DNA from: a virus
Virus record (IMG/VR): IMGVR_UViG_3300028908_000020
Coordinates: 1-37,908 of that record
Reading direction: 5' to 3' (one strand)
DNA length: 37,908 nucleotides
The notes beneath the pieces were generated by a model. The model saw nothing but the letters and a program-made list of their open reading frames with translations, had not been told where the DNA came from and did no database searches. Below are positions 366-16,694 of this stretch, piece after piece. Each line of letters begins with the position of its first letter. Position 1 is the stretch's first letter. Both the position numbers and the translations under genes were made by a program.

Positions 366-414
366 CCTACCCACCCCCATGGACAGGGAGTGGGTAGGAA
401 TGGTATTTTTTTTT
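366..414. terminator. Bidirectional terminator, GGGAGTGGG family
   Basis: Arms 366-378 and 386-398 form a 13-bp stem with one C-A mismatch around ATGGACA. T-runs follow on the + strand (404-414) and, read on the other strand, across the A-rich end of the 82-360 gene. It separates two convergent genes. Confidence 0.85.
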
Positions 415-3400
415 ACCTACTTAAATCCAAAGCTGGTTTTGGTATACTATGTTTCTGTGGTTTAGGCTTTTTTGGAGTGTCTGTAGTCTTTGTATTTTCG
501 AGTTTCATATTTCTATATTCCAATAAGATATCTCGTATTTCTTTTTGTACTTGTAATGATTCTGTTAGTGTACTACTCATAGTAGAGATTGGTTCTAATA
601 AGTCGTTGGATATCGGTGGTGGTGCTGGCATTACAGTAGGTGTCGATATCTTTGGTATTGGGGTGGTTTTCGACTGCGGTACGACTGGTTGTACAGAAGC
701 CATTTCCACTTTCTTGGTAAGAGGTCTATCCATACCCATCGACTGCATGGCTACTTTCTTTGACCGTCCTCTCTTTCTTGCACCACGCACAGTACCATAT
801 CCACCGCCTCCCTTTCCTGGGCTATTTATGATCTGCTGCATAGCCCAATCTGGATCAGTTTTTGCTCTACTGATATCCACCTGTAATCCAGCAGGTTCTA
901 TATGCCAAGGTTCTCCTCCAATGGGTCTTGTAAATCCATACTTACGAAGGAGTCCGAGTTCTTCTAATGCATTCGCATCGCTACTATTGATATCTATTGC
1001 ATATCCAAGACTGTGCATGGAAAGTCCTTTTGCAGCATTCCTGTTCCTTCTTGCCAAACGACTTTGTTCTCTTCTAGACCTATATGCAGAATTTACTTGT
1101 ATTTTCTTACCCGTAAGCTGATGATATTCCGTAACCATAGCCAAAAAGAGTCTACGTACTGCTATATTGAGTTTTATAATACTATCTTTATCCGTATTGT
1201 GGAATCTTATGTATTTTAAAGCTTCTTTTTCATCTGGGGTAAGATCTACATCTATAGTACCTGTATCTGTAAGTGCTATATCTCTAGCAGCTAAACCAGC
1301 ATCGATGGCTGTTGATATTCCAGTCCCTATACCGGGTATTGTTCCGGCTACACCTGAAGCTACTTCTCCTATAGCACCTGTGATATCGCCTTGTAGTAAT
1401 CTTTGGATTCCAAATCCAAGGCCTGCACCAATACTTATTATAGGTATCTTTTTAAGTAGGCTCTTTCCTACTGTTTTTCCTGCTGTCTCTGCTACTGTTT
1501 TTCCTGTTGCCTTTTCTATCGCTAAAGATCCTTTACTACCAAGATCTTTTAACACTTTATCTTGTACTTTACCACTAGTCCTCTTTCTAAGGCTTTCAAG
1601 AGCTTTCTTCCCTGCATAGGCGGTTCCTGCTGCTTTTACTACATTTCCAACTTTTTTACCCATCTTATCCAGTCCAAACATATTGGACGCCTTAGAAAAT
1701 AACTCCATTATATTGTCTAGTGAAAACATAGACTTCTTACTACTTTTTTCTTTTATAGTCGTTTTTCTATCTTCTTTCTTCGTATCTTTCTTCCTATTCT
1801 TTATACGCTCTCTCCAACTTCCTCTTCGAATGTTCTCTCCGTCTAACTCGTCCAATATTTTAGTAAGTAGCTCTGTTTGCTTTACAAGTTCATCATAGAT
1901 GTCTTTATTGTGTTCTGTTCGTATTATGGTAGTAGATAGTATGGATTTAAACGCATCGGCAGAAAATACCTCTCCTAGCTTTCCAGACATTTGGTTATAT
2001 TTGTCTGTAACAATACCTTTAAACTTCTTGGATTTGTCTTTGAATTGTAATCCTGTAACTCTCGATATAACTTTTCCTATTCCCTTTACCAGTCCTTTCT
2101 TTATACTACTTCCTAATGATATCAGGTTTCCTTGTGCGTCTTTTAAACCTTTCCTTAGATCAGAAGTAGTAAGTACCATATTGCCTTCGATATCCATTAC
2201 TGGTCCTGTAATATCACTAAGCTTACTTATTATTTTACCTGTAGTAATATCTACATACAAACCCATTTCCATTGCTTTTGCCCTTATTACAGGCTCTGGA
2301 TTTCCGTCGATAAAAAGATCCATGGGTTTATCTTTTTGACCTACTATAAAGCTGGCTACCTTTCCAATACCTTTTTTGGCTATTTTTAATAAGTCTGGTA
2401 ATCTTTTTATCCCATACGTAGTCATAGCTGTCATTACTGTAAGGGATCTGCTAAATATATCACTAAGTGTGGATGACAAAGCAGTCATCGGACCTAATAG
2501 TGTTTTATATGTAGTTCCTGCTGTGGCTAACAGCTTTGCCATCACTCCTTGTATAGAGCTGGCTGTAAACTTTATAGCATTCATTGGAGAAAGCTTGGAA
2601 ATAAAATTCTTTGCTTTTCCAAGACCACCCATTGCTAAATTCTTTATAAACCTACCGCCAACTCCAATTGCCTTCAATACGCTCGGAAGTTTAAAGCCAT
2701 ATTTCTCAATATCTTTTACCGTATCATTACTTACAAATGACATATTGGCTATGCTGTCTAAGATACTCGTCAGTATCGTATTGGTATTCTCTTGGTTGGA
2801 GTTCATTACCTCCAATAGTTCTGTCTGTTTATCCAGCTTATCAGCACACCAACACTGTCCTTCTTCATTTTCTTCTACTGGTTGTCCTACAGGAGATATT
2901 CCCATATTAAAACTACGCAGCTTCTGTAAATCGACGAGTACTGTACTCTTTCCACTACCAGACAACACACCAGAGGCTGTTAATGTATCCAAACCAGCTT
3001 GATCTATAAGTCTATTTAGTCGTTCATGGTCGTCTTTTGACATACCATCTATTGTCGTAGTAACAATGTCCTCTACTACTTTCTTAGAACTTTTACTACC
3101 TTTTACCGCGTTTGGTTTGTTATTGAACAGACTATAATACGTTTCCATATCCAGAGAATAGCCACTATCTGATATATAGTCTTGTACGTAGTCTTGCATT
3201 CCAGCATCGATATATCGCTGTACGATATCTTTTATATCAGGCATGTAACTTCTGATAAGCCCCATAGTGGCTATAACTTCTTGTTCATTGTCTCGTAACG
3301 TTTGCTCTAATTTCCCGGCTAGTTCTTCTTCATCGTTTACACGTAGAGTTTTTAATATGTCTTCTATTCCGTAGTATTTCTTTGTGGCTATAGTACGTAT

Positions 3401-4936
3401 GATTGCATTCTTAAAAGACTGCTTCTCTTTTTTAGTAAGGTTCAAATCTTTAGAATATTTCTTTATGAAAGTATTTATATCTTCTTTTGCTACAGACTCA
3501 TTTACACGAGTATCGATATTCCTTTTGATTTCTCGCTTCAACGCAGTCGTTCTTTTGAATTCTCCACTACTGTAATCGAAGTCTAACAGATCTACAGATG
3601 GATCACCTGTACGTATAGAAGTAATCTCTCCTAGAATTCTTTTCAGATAGCCAGGTATTACTTTTACGATACTTATTCTTGAGCTATTATCAAAAATAGC
3701 AGGACCCGTAGGATTAAATTCTGCAATATTTAATTTTTTATTGGTGGAGGTATCTGTAGCCAGTGAAAGGAAACCACGACCAATTGTCTTTAAGAACTCT
3801 GGAGTGTTTTCCCTTGCTATATAATCGCGTACGAATCCAGGAGCATTCTTTACTCGTTCGTTATACAACGAAAGAACTTTCATAAGTTTTTCGTTTTCGA
3901 GTATCTTATCTCCTACTCTGTTTCCTACAGCATTACGAACTCTGCCACCTACAAAGCCTCCAACTTTCCGTTCCTTCGATGTCTGTACTCCCATTTCAGC
4001 CATCATGGCTTGCATTTCAAGACCCATACTGGCAGCCGATAATCCCTGTACTACCATATTTACGCTTTCTGCTACCTTACTCTTTACATTTTTCAGTAAG
4101 TTTCCTATCCAGGTATCTTCACCAAACATAGCTTCTTGTACGTTTTGTAATGTTGTATCTCTGAGGATCTCTGCAAAGCGTTCTGTTTTTCGTATCTTTA
4201 ATACTTCTGGTAATGCTGTATTCGTTACGATACTTTCTAATTGTCTCTTTATGGTCTCGTTATTGCTCTTGTTGAGTTCCAGTATTTTCTCTAAAGTAAA
4301 TAATGTCCGGTATTTTAACTCTAGAGATTTCGATTGATACCTGGATTCATACTCTACTTGATATCTCCAGAGTCCTTTTAGACTACCAGATATTTCTTGT
4401 AGTGCTTGAAGCTCTGTCTCCCACTTCTTGTGAGAAACCATCTCCTTGAGTTTCTTTTCAGCTTCCGATCCCTCTGTCAAAGAAGGTAGAATGCCTAGTA
4501 TCTTTGCTCTAATAAGTTCCTTTTCAGACTCTTTCGCTTGACGTGGATCTTCTATACCACCAATTCTATCCAGCAGATCCCTTGTTCTTTTAAATTTGGA
4601 TGGTATTACTTTTTTACTAAGTCTGGCTACTTTTTGTAATTCTGGTTTAATGCCTTTAACGGCTTCTTTATAGATATCTGATATTCCTGTATTTATCGTC
4701 TCTATAGCCGATACGGTTTCTGATAATTCATCTGGTATTGCGGTATCTACTAACGTGGATATTATTTTTGAAGTATCGAGTTCTTCTTTTATACCAGTAC
4801 CAAAGTCTTTTACTACTTTAGTAACTACTGCTCTCTTATCTGATGGTTTATTGTCCTCAAGTATGTCGCCATCTCCAGCGACATCGAACATACCATCATC
4901 GTCCATATCAAAATCGAAATCAAGATCGTCAGCCAT
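413..4936 (-). CDS. Giant virion/tail protein with C-terminal M15 (VanY-like) peptidase domain
   Basis: The 1507-residue product is probably a virion protein carrying a peptidoglycan-cleaving domain. Residues 1-35 are strongly acidic (DLDFDFDMDDD), residues about 60-700 are long helical, and residues about 720-860 are Gly/Ala-rich and hydrophobic. An M15 metallopeptidase domain lies at about 1265-1350: SAYRSRREQ, then SMHSLGYAID supplying H1308 and D1315, then EPWHIEP supplying E1342 and H1345, the usual zinc and catalytic set of DD/LD-peptidases. The tail is Pro-rich. ATG 4936 is preferred to ATG 4951 because GGAG sits nine bases ahead of it. The gene lies divergent to the RNAP operon, where phiKZ (from memory) has the large transglycosylase protein gp181. 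Tape measure or baseplate lysin roles are both possible. Confidence 0.8.
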   Translation of the reverse strand: MADDLDFDFDMDDDGMFDVAGDGDILEDNKPSDKRAVVTKVVKDFGTGIKEELDTSKIISTLVDTAIPDELSETVSAIETINTGISDIYKEAVKGIKPELQKVARLSKKVIPSKFKRTRDLLDRIGGIEDPRQAKESEKELIRAKILGILPSLTEGSEAEKKLKEMVSHKKWETELQALQEISGSLKGLWRYQVEYESRYQSKSLELKYRTLFTLEKILELNKSNNETIKRQLESIVTNTALPEVLKIRKTERFAEILRDTTLQNVQEAMFGEDTWIGNLLKNVKSKVAESVNMVVQGLSAASMGLEMQAMMAEMGVQTSKERKVGGFVGGRVRNAVGNRVGDKILENEKLMKVLSLYNERVKNAPGFVRDYIARENTPEFLKTIGRGFLSLATDTSTNKKLNIAEFNPTGPAIFDNSSRISIVKVIPGYLKRILGEITSIRTGDPSVDLLDFDYSSGEFKRTTALKREIKRNIDTRVNESVAKEDINTFIKKYSKDLNLTKKEKQSFKNAIIRTIATKKYYGIEDILKTLRVNDEEELAGKLEQTLRDNEQEVIATMGLIRSYMPDIKDIVQRYIDAGMQDYVQDYISDSGYSLDMETYYSLFNNKPNAVKGSKSSKKVVEDIVTTTIDGMSKDDHERLNRLIDQAGLDTLTASGVLSGSGKSTVLVDLQKLRSFNMGISPVGQPVEENEEGQCWCADKLDKQTELLEVMNSNQENTNTILTSILDSIANMSFVSNDTVKDIEKYGFKLPSVLKAIGVGGRFIKNLAMGGLGKAKNFISKLSPMNAIKFTASSIQGVMAKLLATAGTTYKTLLGPMTALSSTLSDIFSRSLTVMTAMTTYGIKRLPDLLKIAKKGIGKVASFIVGQKDKPMDLFIDGNPEPVIRAKAMEMGLYVDITTGKIISKLSDITGPVMDIEGNMVLTTSDLRKGLKDAQGNLISLGSSIKKGLVKGIGKVISRVTGLQFKDKSKKFKGIVTDKYNQMSGKLGEVFSADAFKSILSTTIIRTEHNKDIYDELVKQTELLTKILDELDGENIRRGSWRERIKNRKKDTKKEDRKTTIKEKSSKKSMFSLDNIMELFSKASNMFGLDKMGKKVGNVVKAAGTAYAGKKALESLRKRTSGKVQDKVLKDLGSKGSLAIEKATGKTVAETAGKTVGKSLLKKIPIISIGAGLGFGIQRLLQGDITGAIGEVASGVAGTIPGIGTGISTAIDAGLAARDIALTDTGTIDVDLTPDEKEALKYIRFHNTDKDSIIKLNIAVRRLFLAMVTEYHQLTGKKIQVNSAYRSRREQSRLARRNRNAAKGLSMHSLGYAIDINSSDANALEELGLLRKYGFTRPIGGEPWHIEPAGLQVDISRAKTDPDWAMQQIINSPGKGGGGYGTVRGARKRGRSKKVAMQSMGMDRPLTKKVEMASVQPVVPQSKTTPIPKISTPTVMPAPPPISNDLLEPISTMSSTLTESLQVQKEIRDILLEYRNMKLENTKTTDTPKKPKPQKHSIPKPALDLSR

Positions 4937-4965
4937 TCGCTGCTGCTCCATAACAATATCAGGAA

Positions 4966-6614: not shown

Positions 6615-9600
6615 TGTATACCTATCAGATTTTCTATAAAAAATACGGCGTTAGAAGACCGGGACATTTAATTACAAGAGCATTACACCCTTTTACTGAA
6701 TTTGCTTCTATCAAAAGAGCAGTCTATATACACGATAGTAAGGAAAGTAATAGCGTTACAGTTCCAACAATGTCGTTTATTGATGTTTCACAAAAGATAC
6801 CTATCTTTGTGCCAGAGCTTCCCGATTCTGGTCAAATAGAAAATGGTAAAGTCTATGCAAGACACTATACTAAATATCTACAACTTATTAAGAAGAATAG
6901 AGATTATCGCTATTATGATGCTGTACGTATGACAATACCTGAGAAAATTCCAGTCGTTTTGGATACACAACTTGCACACTATGCATTTAAACACTATCCA
7001 AGTCGTTTAAAAAGTTATTATATTTGGCTGGATAGAATAAAGTATACACTGCGAGGTATAAAAGAAACAAAAGATTTGGATAGGGAATATTTTTGGTTTC
7101 TAAAACCAGAGAGGGATTTGGTTACTTTTGCAGAGTTGAATCGATGGGCAAAGGAAGATATTACGCCTACACAGAGTAACATCATCAATACAGACTGGAA
7201 GAGATTCTTTATACATCTTTATCGTTACGTACATAGCGATGTGGAATTAAAAAATAAAAGTATTTTTTCTAGCATTCCTGAAGAAGTTGCCAATAGAATT
7301 AACTTTGTCATAGTCGACGAAACGAATAAATTTATTATATTATCACTGCGTCTCTTGAAGGAGTGGGCAATCAGCAATACAAAGCTCATAGAGAAAGCAT
7401 TATTGTTCTTTTTCATACGTGTAGCAGAACATATCGAAATTGATGAAGACGAGGAAGAAATTCCAATTGAAAAATTGGTAACAAAAAGCCTGAAGGAAAT
7501 AAACAAGGCAGAAGCTATAGCAAGTTCAAAGAAGCTTGTAGATAAAGACGAAGTCGATCCAAAGACACTTGTAGAAGAAGAAAAGGACGCAGATGATGTC
7601 ATAAAAGAACAAGCAAGTATACTGTTGGATCAGAAAGTAATAGGTAAGGTACAATATAAGAACATAGTAGAAGCCTTGGAAAACAAGAAAAGGATAAAGG
7701 ATCCATATGGAGAAAAGAAAACAGCAGTAAGCAGAGTAGTAGAAAATATCGACACAGAAATACAGGAAGAAGAAATTGCTCTTCCAATAGAGGATATAGT
7801 TCCAGACAAATCCATGGCAAAGAATGTAATACGTACAATTGATAAAAAGTATCTCAAGGAAGGATATAAAACAGATGTAGTAAAATCTACTATATTGTCC
7901 TTAGAGAAGACTGGTGCAATTGTAGAGGATTACAAAATAGAGAAGAAAACTCATGTGCTTGGTGATAAAGAAATACATGAGATCAAAGTACGACCAATAG
8001 ATGGTAAACCTAGTATTATTAAGTTCGAACTCCCAGTAATTACTGAAGACGGAGAACTTACTATGGGAGGTACAAAATATCGTTTACGTAGACAAAGAAC
8101 AGATTTACCTATTCGAAAGATACGTAGTAATATTGTAGCACTTACATCCTTTTATGGAAAAGTAATGATAAAAAGGTCTCCTTATAAGAGACAAGAATAT
8201 GCTTATTGGTTATATAGAAAGATGTCGAACAGTTTTACTGCAAAGGACAATATCGTTACAGACCTACGATCTATGAACATACAAACCAATGAAAAAGAAC
8301 TTCCCTTTCTCTATACTGGTTTGTCGAAATATGTAGGTTATACAACAATAAATGGTATAGAATATATATTCGATTATGATAATCGCGGAGCCTATCTCGG
8401 AATAGATCCAAAGGATTATGAGAAGAAAGGGTCTGTTGTAATAGGTAAGAAAGGAAAAGCCATACTGATTATGACGAAGGACAATGAGATAAAAATAGTA
8501 AAAGATGGAAAGGAAGAACCATATGATAGCTTTGCACAGCAGCTTGGTGTAGATATGGGTAAGGCACCTGTGGATGGTGTCTTTATGAACCTCTATGGAA
8601 AGGCTGTTCCTTTGGGTATTGTATTATCCTACTACATTGGTTTCATAAACTTACTAAAATATTTAAACGTATCATACTACGTAATCGGTGTACGTGATAG
8701 GTTAAAAGATCCTGAAAACGAATATGCTCTACGTCTTAATGACAAGAAGTATGTATTCAAAAGAGGTATTAATAAAGAAAATCTTATTATTGGTAGTATG
8801 ACCTATTCTAAGAACATACTGTCTAGTCTTACGGAAGAAGAACTCAATGAAAAATCAGTCTTCTTGCAGTTTATGACCACTTCTCAATTACGAGAATTGG
8901 ATATGTTGGATAGTTCGTTTATTGATCCGATCACCAAAGACATATTACGAGATCTAAAAGAACCAGAAACGTTTAGAGGTCTTCTTATTCGATCCGCAGA
9001 ATTGATGACCATCGACTATCATCCATACTTGCAAGATATGGATCTTATGTTGATTAGAGGATATGAACGTATTCCTGGTCTTATATATAAAGAACTTACG
9101 AAGGCGGTTAGAGATTATAAACAAAGAAATGTCTTTGGTAATAGTAAGATAGAAATGTCTCCATATACTATATGGAACACAATACAAGGAGATAGTGCAA
9201 AGAGTATTTCTGAAGAGCTTAATCCTGTTGGTAGTCTGAAACTCATAGAAGAGGTCACTTATCTTGGAGAAGGTGGAAGGAGTAGGGAAACCATGTCTGA
9301 ATCCACCAGAAAGTATCATACCTCAGATCTTGGTGTCATCTCAGAGGCTACAAAAGACAGCGGTGATGTAGGTATTAGTGCTGGTCTATCGGCCAATCCA
9401 AATATACGAGATATTCGAGGTAGGAAAGCCAAACCATTTGACATAGAGAAAGATGGTCCTGCAAGTCTTTTATCGACTTCAGCTATGTTGGCTGTTGGAA
9501 GTGATACAGACGATCCAAAGCGAGTAGGATTTGTAAGCATTCAGAATTCACACGTAGTGCCTATCGAAGGACAAGTACAGCCAAAAGTGCGTACGGGATA

Positions 9601-10624
9601 TGATTATGTATTACCTTATAAGGTAGAAAGTAAGTATGTACTCATGGCTGAAGAAGATGGTGTAGTAAAAAATCTCACAAAGAAAAACATTACAGTAGAG
9701 TATAAGAATGGAGAGAGTGGTAGTTACAAAATAGGTGTATGGTACAGTCGTCCTGAAGCAGGGTCTGCTTACATGCATGAGTTAGTTACAGATCTCAAGA
9801 AGGGAGATAAGTTCAAGAAAGGAGATCCGATCTACTACGATAGGATGTTTTTCGAAAAAGATTGGTTGTACGACGATAAAATCGTATATAAACAAGCTAC
9901 TCTAATGAATGTGGCTCTTATGGAAACGGATCAGACCTTCGAAGATAGCTCTGCTATTACAAAGAAAGCCACTGAAAAACTTACATCAGAAATTGCAAAA
10001 GTACACACATATACACTACCATTTACGGCAACTATATCCGATATGGTCAAAGTAGGTGATCGTGTAAAAACAGGTGATAATCTATTTATATATGCCGAAG
10101 GATCTTTGGATGATGGTTTGGATGAAGATACTAGAAAAGCATTAGCAGAACTTACTACGAAAGCTCCTAGTTCTAAATACATAGGTACTATTGATAAAGT
10201 TATAATGTATTGGAATGGGAATATGGAGGATATGTCTCCAAGCCTTAAAAAATTAGCTGAAGAAAGTAATAAGACATTGTCCAAAGAACTTGGAAAAAAA
10301 GTAGACGGAAATACAGATGGACAATTACTGGTAGAAGGACGACAATTAGGGATGAATGAGGTCGTTATATATATTTATGTAAAGATACAAGAGAAGTATG
10401 GTCTTGGTGATAAAGGAATCTTTGCCAACCAGATGAAAACAGTAACAAGTGAGGTCATCCAGCATGATATCACTACAGAAGATGGAACGCCAATCGATGC
10501 ACTATTCGGGGATCGGTCTGTCTATGCTCGAATAGTTTTATCTCCTATGGTAATAGGAACAACCAACAAGTTGCTGACACTTATCAAGAATAAGGCAGTG
10601 GCTGCTTATTTCGGAGACGAATAA
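6614..10624 (+). CDS. RNA polymerase beta-like subunit in one chain
   Basis: The 1336-residue product is an RpoB-like subunit. Residues 1 to about 450 show no clear RpoB match and include an acidic/Lys-rich stretch near 275-330. From about 470 it resembles the RpoB lobe (LTMGGTKYRLRRQR, then KRSP). Residues about 870-935 match the fork/rifampicin-pocket region (NPVGSLKLIEEVTYLGEGG, YHTSDLGVI). ETDQTFEDSSAI near 1104 matches the GYNFEDAI region. The C-terminal GDKGIFANQMK supplies K1267 and K1275, spaced exactly like the catalytic lysines in GDKMAGRHGNK of RpoB. Both N- and C-terminal beta parts are thus in one polypeptide, whereas phiKZ splits its beta chains (from memory). It overlaps both neighbours by one base. 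Confidence 0.9.
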   Translation: MYTYQIFYKKYGVRRPGHLITRALHPFTEFASIKRAVYIHDSKESNSVTVPTMSFIDVSQKIPIFVPELPDSGQIENGKVYARHYTKYLQLIKKNRDYRYYDAVRMTIPEKIPVVLDTQLAHYAFKHYPSRLKSYYIWLDRIKYTLRGIKETKDLDREYFWFLKPERDLVTFAELNRWAKEDITPTQSNIINTDWKRFFIHLYRYVHSDVELKNKSIFSSIPEEVANRINFVIVDETNKFIILSLRLLKEWAISNTKLIEKALLFFFIRVAEHIEIDEDEEEIPIEKLVTKSLKEINKAEAIASSKKLVDKDEVDPKTLVEEEKDADDVIKEQASILLDQKVIGKVQYKNIVEALENKKRIKDPYGEKKTAVSRVVENIDTEIQEEEIALPIEDIVPDKSMAKNVIRTIDKKYLKEGYKTDVVKSTILSLEKTGAIVEDYKIEKKTHVLGDKEIHEIKVRPIDGKPSIIKFELPVITEDGELTMGGTKYRLRRQRTDLPIRKIRSNIVALTSFYGKVMIKRSPYKRQEYAYWLYRKMSNSFTAKDNIVTDLRSMNIQTNEKELPFLYTGLSKYVGYTTINGIEYIFDYDNRGAYLGIDPKDYEKKGSVVIGKKGKAILIMTKDNEIKIVKDGKEEPYDSFAQQLGVDMGKAPVDGVFMNLYGKAVPLGIVLSYYIGFINLLKYLNVSYYVIGVRDRLKDPENEYALRLNDKKYVFKRGINKENLIIGSMTYSKNILSSLTEEELNEKSVFLQFMTTSQLRELDMLDSSFIDPITKDILRDLKEPETFRGLLIRSAELMTIDYHPYLQDMDLMLIRGYERIPGLIYKELTKAVRDYKQRNVFGNSKIEMSPYTIWNTIQGDSAKSISEELNPVGSLKLIEEVTYLGEGGRSRETMSESTRKYHTSDLGVISEATKDSGDVGISAGLSANPNIRDIRGRKAKPFDIEKDGPASLLSTSAMLAVGSDTDDPKRVGFVSIQNSHVVPIEGQVQPKVRTGYDYVLPYKVESKYVLMAEEDGVVKNLTKKNITVEYKNGESGSYKIGVWYSRPEAGSAYMHELVTDLKKGDKFKKGDPIYYDRMFFEKDWLYDDKIVYKQATLMNVALMETDQTFEDSSAITKKATEKLTSEIAKVHTYTLPFTATISDMVKVGDRVKTGDNLFIYAEGSLDDGLDEDTRKALAELTTKAPSSKYIGTIDKVIMYWNGNMEDMSPSLKKLAEESNKTLSKELGKKVDGNTDGQLLVEGRQLGMNEVVIYIYVKIQEKYGLGDKGIFANQMKTVTSEVIQHDITTEDGTPIDALFGDRSVYARIVLSPMVIGTTNKLLTLIKNKAVAAYFGDE

Positions 10625-14375: not shown

Positions 14376-14380
14376 ACCAC

Positions 14381-14414
14381 CTACCCTATACCTAGGTATA
14401 GGGTAGGGTATTTT
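14381..14414 (+). terminator. Perfect 26-bp palindrome with T-tract before the macro/SLOG gene
   Basis: 14381-14406 is a perfect palindrome (CTACCCTATACC... centred on CCTAGG), followed by GGTATTTT and then directly by AGGAGG, the Shine-Dalgarno of the TTG start at 14430. It may be a second terminator or a leader hairpin that affects translation of the next gene. Confidence 0.55.
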
Positions 14415-14429
14415 AGGAGGTTCTTTTCG

Positions 14430-15194
14430 TTGATAAAACACTTATCAGAAAACCAAATCTTTGTCTTTGGTAGTAACTTAGCTGGTAGACATGGACGAGG
14501 CGCTGCCAAGCAAGCAGTCGATTCTTTTGGGGCTGTATACGGCCAAGCTGTCGGTCTGCAAGGGAAGACTTACGCCATTCCTACAAAAGACAAAAAATTG
14601 CAAACACTACCTTTGGGTACAATCGGTAAATACGTTCTGGATTTTTTAAAGTTTGCTGGAGAACATTCAGAGCTAGAATTCTTGCTTACAAAAATAGGTT
14701 GTGGGTTAGCTGGATATCCAGAAGAACTCATTAAACCATTATTCTATCGAGCACCTGAAAATATAGTTCTACCAGATGGGTGGGAACGTAATGATATGCT
14801 AAAAGGAAAAGTATTGTTAGTGGCTGGTAGTCGCTCTATTACAGATAAAGATAAGATATATAAAGCTCTATCGGATAAAATTACAGAAGATACTGTAATT
14901 TTATCCGGAGGTGCTGATGGAGTAGACAGTATTGCTGAACAGTATACAACAGACAATGGAATAGACGTTGTTGTTCTAAAGGCACCATGGTCTGTATTAA
15001 ACACGCCTTTCAAACGTGTACGTACTACCAAATCTGGTTATACGTATAATGCTTCTGCTGGATATTTTAGGAATGTTTGGATGGGTGTGAACTGTGATGA
15101 AGCTGTTGTTTTTTGGGATGGAAAATCACCAGGAACGAGGCATATGTTGGATCTCCTAAAAATCTTTGAAATCGAGGCGTGTTTGTGTCAATAG
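14430..15194 (+). CDS. Macro-domain-like (A1S_2505 type) fused to SLOG/DUF2493 domain
   Basis: The 254-residue fusion has two nucleotide-ligand-type domains. Residues about 5-115 match the phage/bacterial A1S_2505 macro-like family: FVFGSNLAGRHGRGAAKQA (11-29), YAIPTKDK, LTKIGCGLAGYPEEL, IVLPDGW. Residues about 127-250 match the YspA/cpYpsA-related SLOG family: VLLVAGSRSITD, VILSGGADGVDSIAEQY, YFRNVWMG, DEAVVFWDGKSPGT. Families of this kind bind NAD-derived nucleotides or other nucleotide ligands; the ligand here is unknown. Start is TTG with AGGAGG eight bases ahead. It leads a run of small genes 14430-16183. An anti-defence or NAD-metabolite role is inference. Confidence 0.85.
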   Translation: MIKHLSENQIFVFGSNLAGRHGRGAAKQAVDSFGAVYGQAVGLQGKTYAIPTKDKKLQTLPLGTIGKYVLDFLKFAGEHSELEFLLTKIGCGLAGYPEELIKPLFYRAPENIVLPDGWERNDMLKGKVLLVAGSRSITDKDKIYKALSDKITEDTVILSGGADGVDSIAEQYTTDNGIDVVVLKAPWSVLNTPFKRVRTTKSGYTYNASAGYFRNVWMGVNCDEAVVFWDGKSPGTRHMLDLLKIFEIEACLCQ

Positions 15195-15391
15195 AAGTCG
15201 AACCCGATATAGCCAAATATCTTCCATACAATATAACGATTATAGAAAAACACTACGATGATGATACGCGATGGAGTATTGTCTATAAGGATCATAACAC
15301 GGATAAGTTTATGAGAATCGTAAAAAAGGATAATTGCGTGTATAAGTATGGTTTTAAGGTAGATGAACACACGGTGACTTCCCTTGAATAA
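15185..15391 (+). CDS. Small unknown protein, 68 residues
   Basis: Overlaps the end of the macro/SLOG gene. GTG 15185 is chosen because GAGG lies seven bases ahead; GTG 15179 would leave only one base. The product (MSIEVEPDIAKYLPYN...) is beta-prone and acidic, with no motif or membrane segment. The tight overlap suggests co-translation with the fusion gene upstream. Confidence 0.65.
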   Translation: MSIEVEPDIAKYLPYNITIIEKHYDDDTRWSIVYKDHNTDKFMRIVKKDNCVYKYGFKVDEHTVTSLE

Positions 15392-16183: not shown

Positions 16184-16193
16184 ATATCAATTA

Positions 16194-16237
16194 CCCACCC
16201 ACTCCCATAGACTGGGAGTGGGTGGGTTAGTTTTTTT
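16194..16237 (+). terminator. Terminator, GGGAGTGGG family
   Basis: CCCACCCACTCCCA (16194-16207) and TGGGAGTGGGTGGG (16213-16226) form a perfect 14-bp stem with loop TAGAC; a seven-T run follows at 16231-16237. Confidence 0.9.
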
Positions 16238-16644: not shown

Positions 16645-16694
16645 CCCACCCACTCCCATGGATCGGGAGTGGGTGGGTTCTTTATTTTTTTTTT
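16645..16694. terminator. Bidirectional terminator, GGGAGTGGG family
   Basis: CCCACCCACTCCC (16645-16657) and GGGAGTGGGTGGG (16665-16677) pair around ATGGATC. A T-run at 16678-16694 serves the + strand; the TATTTTACC read on the - strand serves the tube/sheath operon. Confidence 0.88.

Follow-up and report, generated by a model that had tools for sequence, protein, structure and literature searches.

The macrodomain–SLOG fusion gene and its phage

What might a jumbo phage gain from joining a macrodomain and a SLOG domain on one polypeptide, and which molecules could the two domains share? The gene that raises this question lies in a stretch of viral DNA (the window, the whole 37,908 bases of the virus record analysed here) that also carries two multisubunit RNA polymerase genes, an S80 head protease, a tail tube and a sheath. 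Relatives of the sheath are phiKZ-like jumbo phages, and the window represents part of the genome of such a phage. A 1512-aa protein is encoded on the minus strand (413-4951), with a tail-fibre-like N-terminal half and an endolysin/peptidase-like C-terminal half.

The fusion gene occupies 14430-15194 on the plus strand, exactly the position given in the initial annotation, which had read a macro-like and a SLOG motif in this one frame; it encodes 254 aa from a TTG start. The start is supported by a Shine-Dalgarno sequence, AGGAGG, at 14416-14421 (plus strand), 8 nt ahead of the TTG by direct sequence reading. Directly upstream, a consensus scan found a 12-bp hairpin followed by a short U-rich stretch (14380-14407, plus strand), a possible terminator of the preceding gene. 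On the other side, a 70-aa ORF in the ORF list (15179-15391, plus strand) overlaps the end of the fusion gene by 16 nt and is possibly cotranscribed with it; this ORF had no Pfam match and a single weak PHROG match (E 0.017). The two halves of the protein are mutually unrelated in an hhalign profile comparison (probability 0.6%). They were modelled separately with AlphaFold2 because the joint alignment for one full-length model appeared misaligned.

An A1S_2505-type macrodomain at the N-terminus

The N-terminal half (residues 10-118; 14457-14783, plus strand) is a full-length, high-scoring member of the A1S_2505 family: it matches NCBIfam NF049995 (A1S_2505_Nterm) over model positions 1-109 of 109 at E 4.4e-43, with 146 bits against a curated cut-off of 45 bits. 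It also matches PHROG_2072 (E 4.8e-39) and, only weakly, PHROG_335 (E 2.8e-4). The Pfam scan returned no match to the Macro family PF01661, and the description "macro-like" therefore needed a test at the level of fold. That description held: the AlphaFold2 model (mean pLDDT 95.8, alignment of 37 sequences) places this half in the macrodomain superfamily, and its top Foldseek matches in the PDB were 2fg1 (a protein of unknown function), TARG1 and DarG, at probability 1.00 and moderate TM-scores of 0.60-0.67, with sequence identity of about 15-20%. Further macrodomains came next, together with designed OSH55-type hydrolases. A single-sequence PDB search gave no macro or SLOG match, and profile searches gave weak DprA only.

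Residues N16, H21, K53 and D54 and an IGCGLAG loop are conserved in the macrodomain; among 129 relatives, N16 is present in 100% and K53 in 92%. To relate these positions to the TARG1/DarG class, where the nearest solved folds lie, we used gp152 of the phiKZ-like Erwinia phage RAY, which is DarG-like (NCBIfam DarG, E 1.2e-37). Profile alignment sets YAIPTKDK of the window protein on CFPTKDK of gp152, and FGSN on TVN. Through this sequence-based alignment, as distinct from a superposition, K53 and N16 fall on K80 and N22 of Thermus aquaticus DarG (TaqDarG), so that both equivalents appear to be kept. Ala94 stands at the aligned place of TARG1 D125, an Asp that thus appears to be replaced; Ala occupies the position in 93% of the family. 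In DarG, mutations of N22 and K80 cut activity most (PMC5179494), and K80 corresponds to K84 of TARG1 (PMC8501950). By alignment, then, K53 is the predicted equivalent of the catalytic Lys of the TARG1/DarG class and N16 that of its pocket Asn. The window macrodomain differs from this class in its low identity, in Ala94 and in having no DarT partner among the window ORFs scanned.

Other A1S_2505 members that we found are mostly stand-alone, and some are fused to DUF7666 (L026, L029). Several members (L026:4974-6017, L022, L024, L020 and L233) join the A1S_2505 domain to a GAASATG-type repeat tail; L026, the member scanned, is the one that also carries DUF7666. In the members whose sequences were read, Leu takes the place of the IPTK lysine (IPTLDK), which suggests a non-catalytic branch. 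Tandem A1S_2505 genes occur as a pair at L229:5995-6939, on a contig binned to Deferribacteraceae with ordinary-looking bacterial genes around, and at L034:4947-5769 on a viral contig, where the first copy is without the glycine motifs (HKHTNS, ICDEYK), a sequence that suggests a diverged partner copy.

A YAcAr-type SLOG domain at the C-terminus

The C-terminal half (residues 123-254; 14796-15191, plus strand) is a YAcAr-type SLOG domain. Residues 129-188 match Pfam PF10686 (YAcAr) at E 5.1e-11 with 42.7 bits, above the gathering cut-off of 28.2 bits, and residues 119-245 match PHROG_289 at E 2.7e-21. With NF049995 and PF10686 both above their cut-offs, the profile check bore out the two domains in one chain that had been called from motifs. 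The label of PHROG_289, "GTP-binding domain", finds no support in the window sequence. A scan with the SLOG half as a single protein gave no matches. The AlphaFold2 model (pLDDT 95.8, alignment of 63 sequences) has ShosA, DprA and TT1465 as its nearest solved folds in Foldseek.

The SLOG motifs are intact (GSR, GGADGVD, W187, AGxxRN and WDGKSPGT), and the most conserved, invariant positions of the family are all kept (G133-S-R135, G160xAxGxD166, W187, AGxxRN, G231 and GT236). The domain differs from most of its family in an insert at about residues 189-206 that no more than about 17% of relatives share. After the GT, the chain continues R-H-M, which puts Met239 at the place of the Glu in the LOG phosphoribohydrolase motif. 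That motif is PGGxGTxxE with a catalytic Glu, and a LOG-type reaction is not expected in this half because the Glu is replaced by Met239. ShosA and DprA are the best structural matches, but the window SLOG is a single Rossmann-like domain and scores 23.5 bits against Pfam DprA (PF02481), below that family's gathering cut-off of 29.6.

A variable slot among virion genes

In the window, the interval between the protease and the tail tube holds the fusion gene together with a gene of 143 aa and four small ORFs. L133, the closest relative that we found, with a tail tube 84% identical, carries an ortholog of the 143-aa gene in this interval, but where the window has the fusion it has two small ORFs and a repeat-rich protein of 1275 aa. 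L134 has an HNH-like and a helicase-like protein there. The fusion is absent from this interval in the relatives examined. Because its content differs between the three genomes, we regard the interval as a variable slot and the fusion as an accessory gene. The neighbours of the fusion gene are virion genes and not a recognised anti-defence island. The phages FLC9, FLC8 and RAY have no A1S_2505 match genome-wide, and all three carry a SLOG gene. Further along the window, two long, near-identical G+C-rich hairpins with T-rich tails (16193-16227 and 16645-16677; CCCACCCACTCCC...GGGAGTGGGTGGG) flank a 132-aa ORF; they are likely terminators where plus- and minus-strand gene blocks meet.

Recurrence of the macro–SLOG pairing

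The pairing is found elsewhere. Fusions with the same order and the same SLOG type occur in the Bacteroides phages DAC16 and SJC03 (272 aa) and in Pseudomonas phage QdP_Psa3 (237 aa; a scan with this fusion as query gave no matches), and the order is reversed, SLOG first, in the viral contigs L192 and L203. A macrodomain is joined to another SLOG family, PF06908, in viral contig L202. Cyanobacterial fusions (L237-L241, Nostoc and Scytonema contigs) have a macrodomain followed by a C-terminal half that matched PF06908 in the member tested, L239; L239 and L240 are records titled plasmids. A single clade of all fusions was rejected (AU p = 0.0003), as was a clade of the window and Bacteroides fusions (AU p = 0.005), and a clade of the window and reversed fusions was not (AU p = 0.19), in a tree where the fused row of QdP_Psa3 has a very long branch. 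Since a single origin is rejected, the pairing arose repeatedly.

Macro and SLOG also occur as separate genes, no more than about 3 kb apart, in Schitoviridae (Moonfish, inbricus), in OLIVR4, where the SLOG gene is 1.3 kb upstream, and in several IMG/VR contigs. In RAY, the macrodomain gene gp152 adjoins a SLOG fusion, gp153. Among 80 IMG/VR SLOG loci, with flanks of up to 10 kb, none had an A1S_2505 gene nearby, and the coupling is therefore sporadic, recurrent and not general. We do not claim enrichment of neighbouring SLOG genes, because the control scan for chance co-location covered 3 loci only.

Several loci were considered beside these. OLIVR4 gp48, which adjoins the macro gene, was not SLOG-like by eye. 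The N-terminal half of RAY gp153 looked NADAR-like by eye, but PF08719 gave no match to it, and we therefore do not claim that NADAR stands in for Macro there. RAY gp151 (L045:4617-5036), beside gp152 and gp153, has a weak second SLOG-like match (E 2.5e-4). At L202:6001-8286, the Macro–YpsA-SLOG fusion has a DUF4326 gene 1.1 kb downstream, which fits a published DUF4326–Macro–SLOG theme. IMG/VR contig L099 encodes a triple fusion of DUF488-N3a, DUF7831 and YAcAr SLOG (9236-10351); its DUF7831 has an FGDN motif in common with the FGSN of the A1S_2505 domain, and assigning it to the A1S_2505 family is weakly supported (26%).

Proposed function and alternatives

Our tentative reading, to which we give somewhat less than an even chance, is that the fusion serves a phiKZ-like jumbo phage as an accessory enzyme of counter-defence, one that removes NAD/ADP-ribose-derived products of host immunity. 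The TARG1/DarG-type macrodomain would bind an ADP-ribose moiety and, judging from residue equivalence, might cleave the bond at the distal ribose via K53. The SLOG domain, to judge from its family, would bind a NAD- or ADP-ribose-derived nucleotide, and could thereby bring in, sense or also process the same class of molecule, so that both domains would jointly clear such products. Catalysis, the identity of the ligand and the counter-defence role are what we infer here; the two folds with their intact motifs on one chain, the repeated independent fusion and the variable accessory locus are observed. We favour an enzyme over a passive sponge because the Lys with the catalytic role in TARG1 and DarG is conserved, as is the residue next in importance, an Asn. 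The initial annotation had offered either, and on these residues the enzyme gains weight and the sponge becomes the weaker version.

This reading has precedent. Iyer et al. (2021/2022) name YAcAr SLOG in jumbo phages and report SLOG–Macro and SLOG–NADAR fusions in large-genome phages, which they propose to dispose of NAD/ADP-ribose-derived immune signals (PMC7824862, PMC9503650), with counter-defence predicted for phage Macro, SLOG and NADAR proteins (PMC9503650). The window fusion is the same one-chain pairing, SLOG and Macro on one phage polypeptide. The main-text passages on these fusions make no particular mention of the A1S_2505 family, of a reversed order or of any phiKZ-like member. We add three points: the A1S_2505 domain, with its conserved lysine, is probably of TARG1/DarG type; a phiKZ-like phage carries the fusion in a variable slot; and there is evidence that fusion took place repeatedly, with the domains in either order. 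Macro and SLOG are common in phages, and in the parts of the literature considered the phage versions are interpreted by context; a compact natural fusion of 254 aa that conserves catalytic-type residues makes the published disposal prediction directly testable, and because the fusion recurs, candidate substrates can be limited to those that suit both domains. Several points stand against a counter-defence enzyme: the moderate TM-scores and low identity, Ala94 for D125, the sporadic coupling, the virion-gene surroundings and the DNA-binding relatives of the SLOG half.

The last of these leads to a serious, if less probable, alternative, that the fusion reverses DarT-type ADP-ribosylation of phage DNA or RNA, with the DarG-like macrodomain de-ADP-ribosylating bases and the DprA-like SLOG holding ssDNA. 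We weigh it seriously because the nearest solved SLOGs are DprA-like ssDNA-binding and antitoxin proteins and not the cADPR-binding SLOG of ThsA, with ShosA and ssDNA-binding DprA as top matches; in addition, TARG1 and DarG, nearest to the macro half, strip ADP-ribose from thymidine in ssDNA (PMC5179494, PMC8501950), and in RAY the DarG-like macrodomain gene adjoins a SLOG fusion. However, the phage SLOG is without the extra domains of DprA and falls short of the DprA cut-off, and viral SLOGs are placed in a YpsA-like clade that includes cADPR sensors (PMC9503650). The candidate substrates fall into two classes, ADP-ribose derivatives in solution and ADP-ribose attached to DNA or RNA; the second would also suit TARG1/DarG-type domains and DprA-like SLOG folds. 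A more specific proposal, which we consider rather unlikely, is a two-step enzyme dedicated to a single NAD-derived molecule or nucleic-acid adduct, in which SLOG would position an ADP-ribose-bearing nucleotide or ssDNA for the macrodomain. The pairing would then be a portable counter-defence module that phages and plasmids share and that evolved several times, in either order and with two different SLOG families.

Compared with the enzymatic reading that we prefer, it is quite improbable that the fusion is a non-catalytic sponge or sensor, binding cADPR-type signals without cleavage. Met239 at the LOG Glu position, which makes LOG-type catalysis by the SLOG half unlikely, would suit such a role; the catalytic-class lysine conserved in 92% of relatives argues against it, as does the fact that the known sponges Tad1, Tad2 and Acb4 belong to other families. 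No Tad1 or Tad2 family surfaced in the general collections Pfam, PHROGs, NCBIfam and PADLOC. Both halves do have folds with binders among them: the macrodomain of TM-macro ThsA binds ADPR with no hydrolysis, and the SLOG of ThsA binds 3'cADPR (PMC11204291). We think it very improbable that the protein serves a housekeeping role, disposing of the ADP-ribose phosphates or 5'-phosphate-ADP-ribosylated RNA that NAD metabolism and the repair of phage RNA leave behind. Bacterial macrodomains, like TARG1 in humans, do take ADP-ribose off RNA phosphate ends (PMC11833690), but the window proteins that were scanned yielded no KptA, 2H or RNA-ligase gene, and a variable locus, as in accessory genes, speaks against it. 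Finally, a chance or degenerate fusion with no function, for which one could cite its rarity and the lack of a close relative for measuring selection, is hardly credible given an intact frame with a Shine-Dalgarno sequence, invariant residues kept throughout both domains, and recurrence in several lineages.
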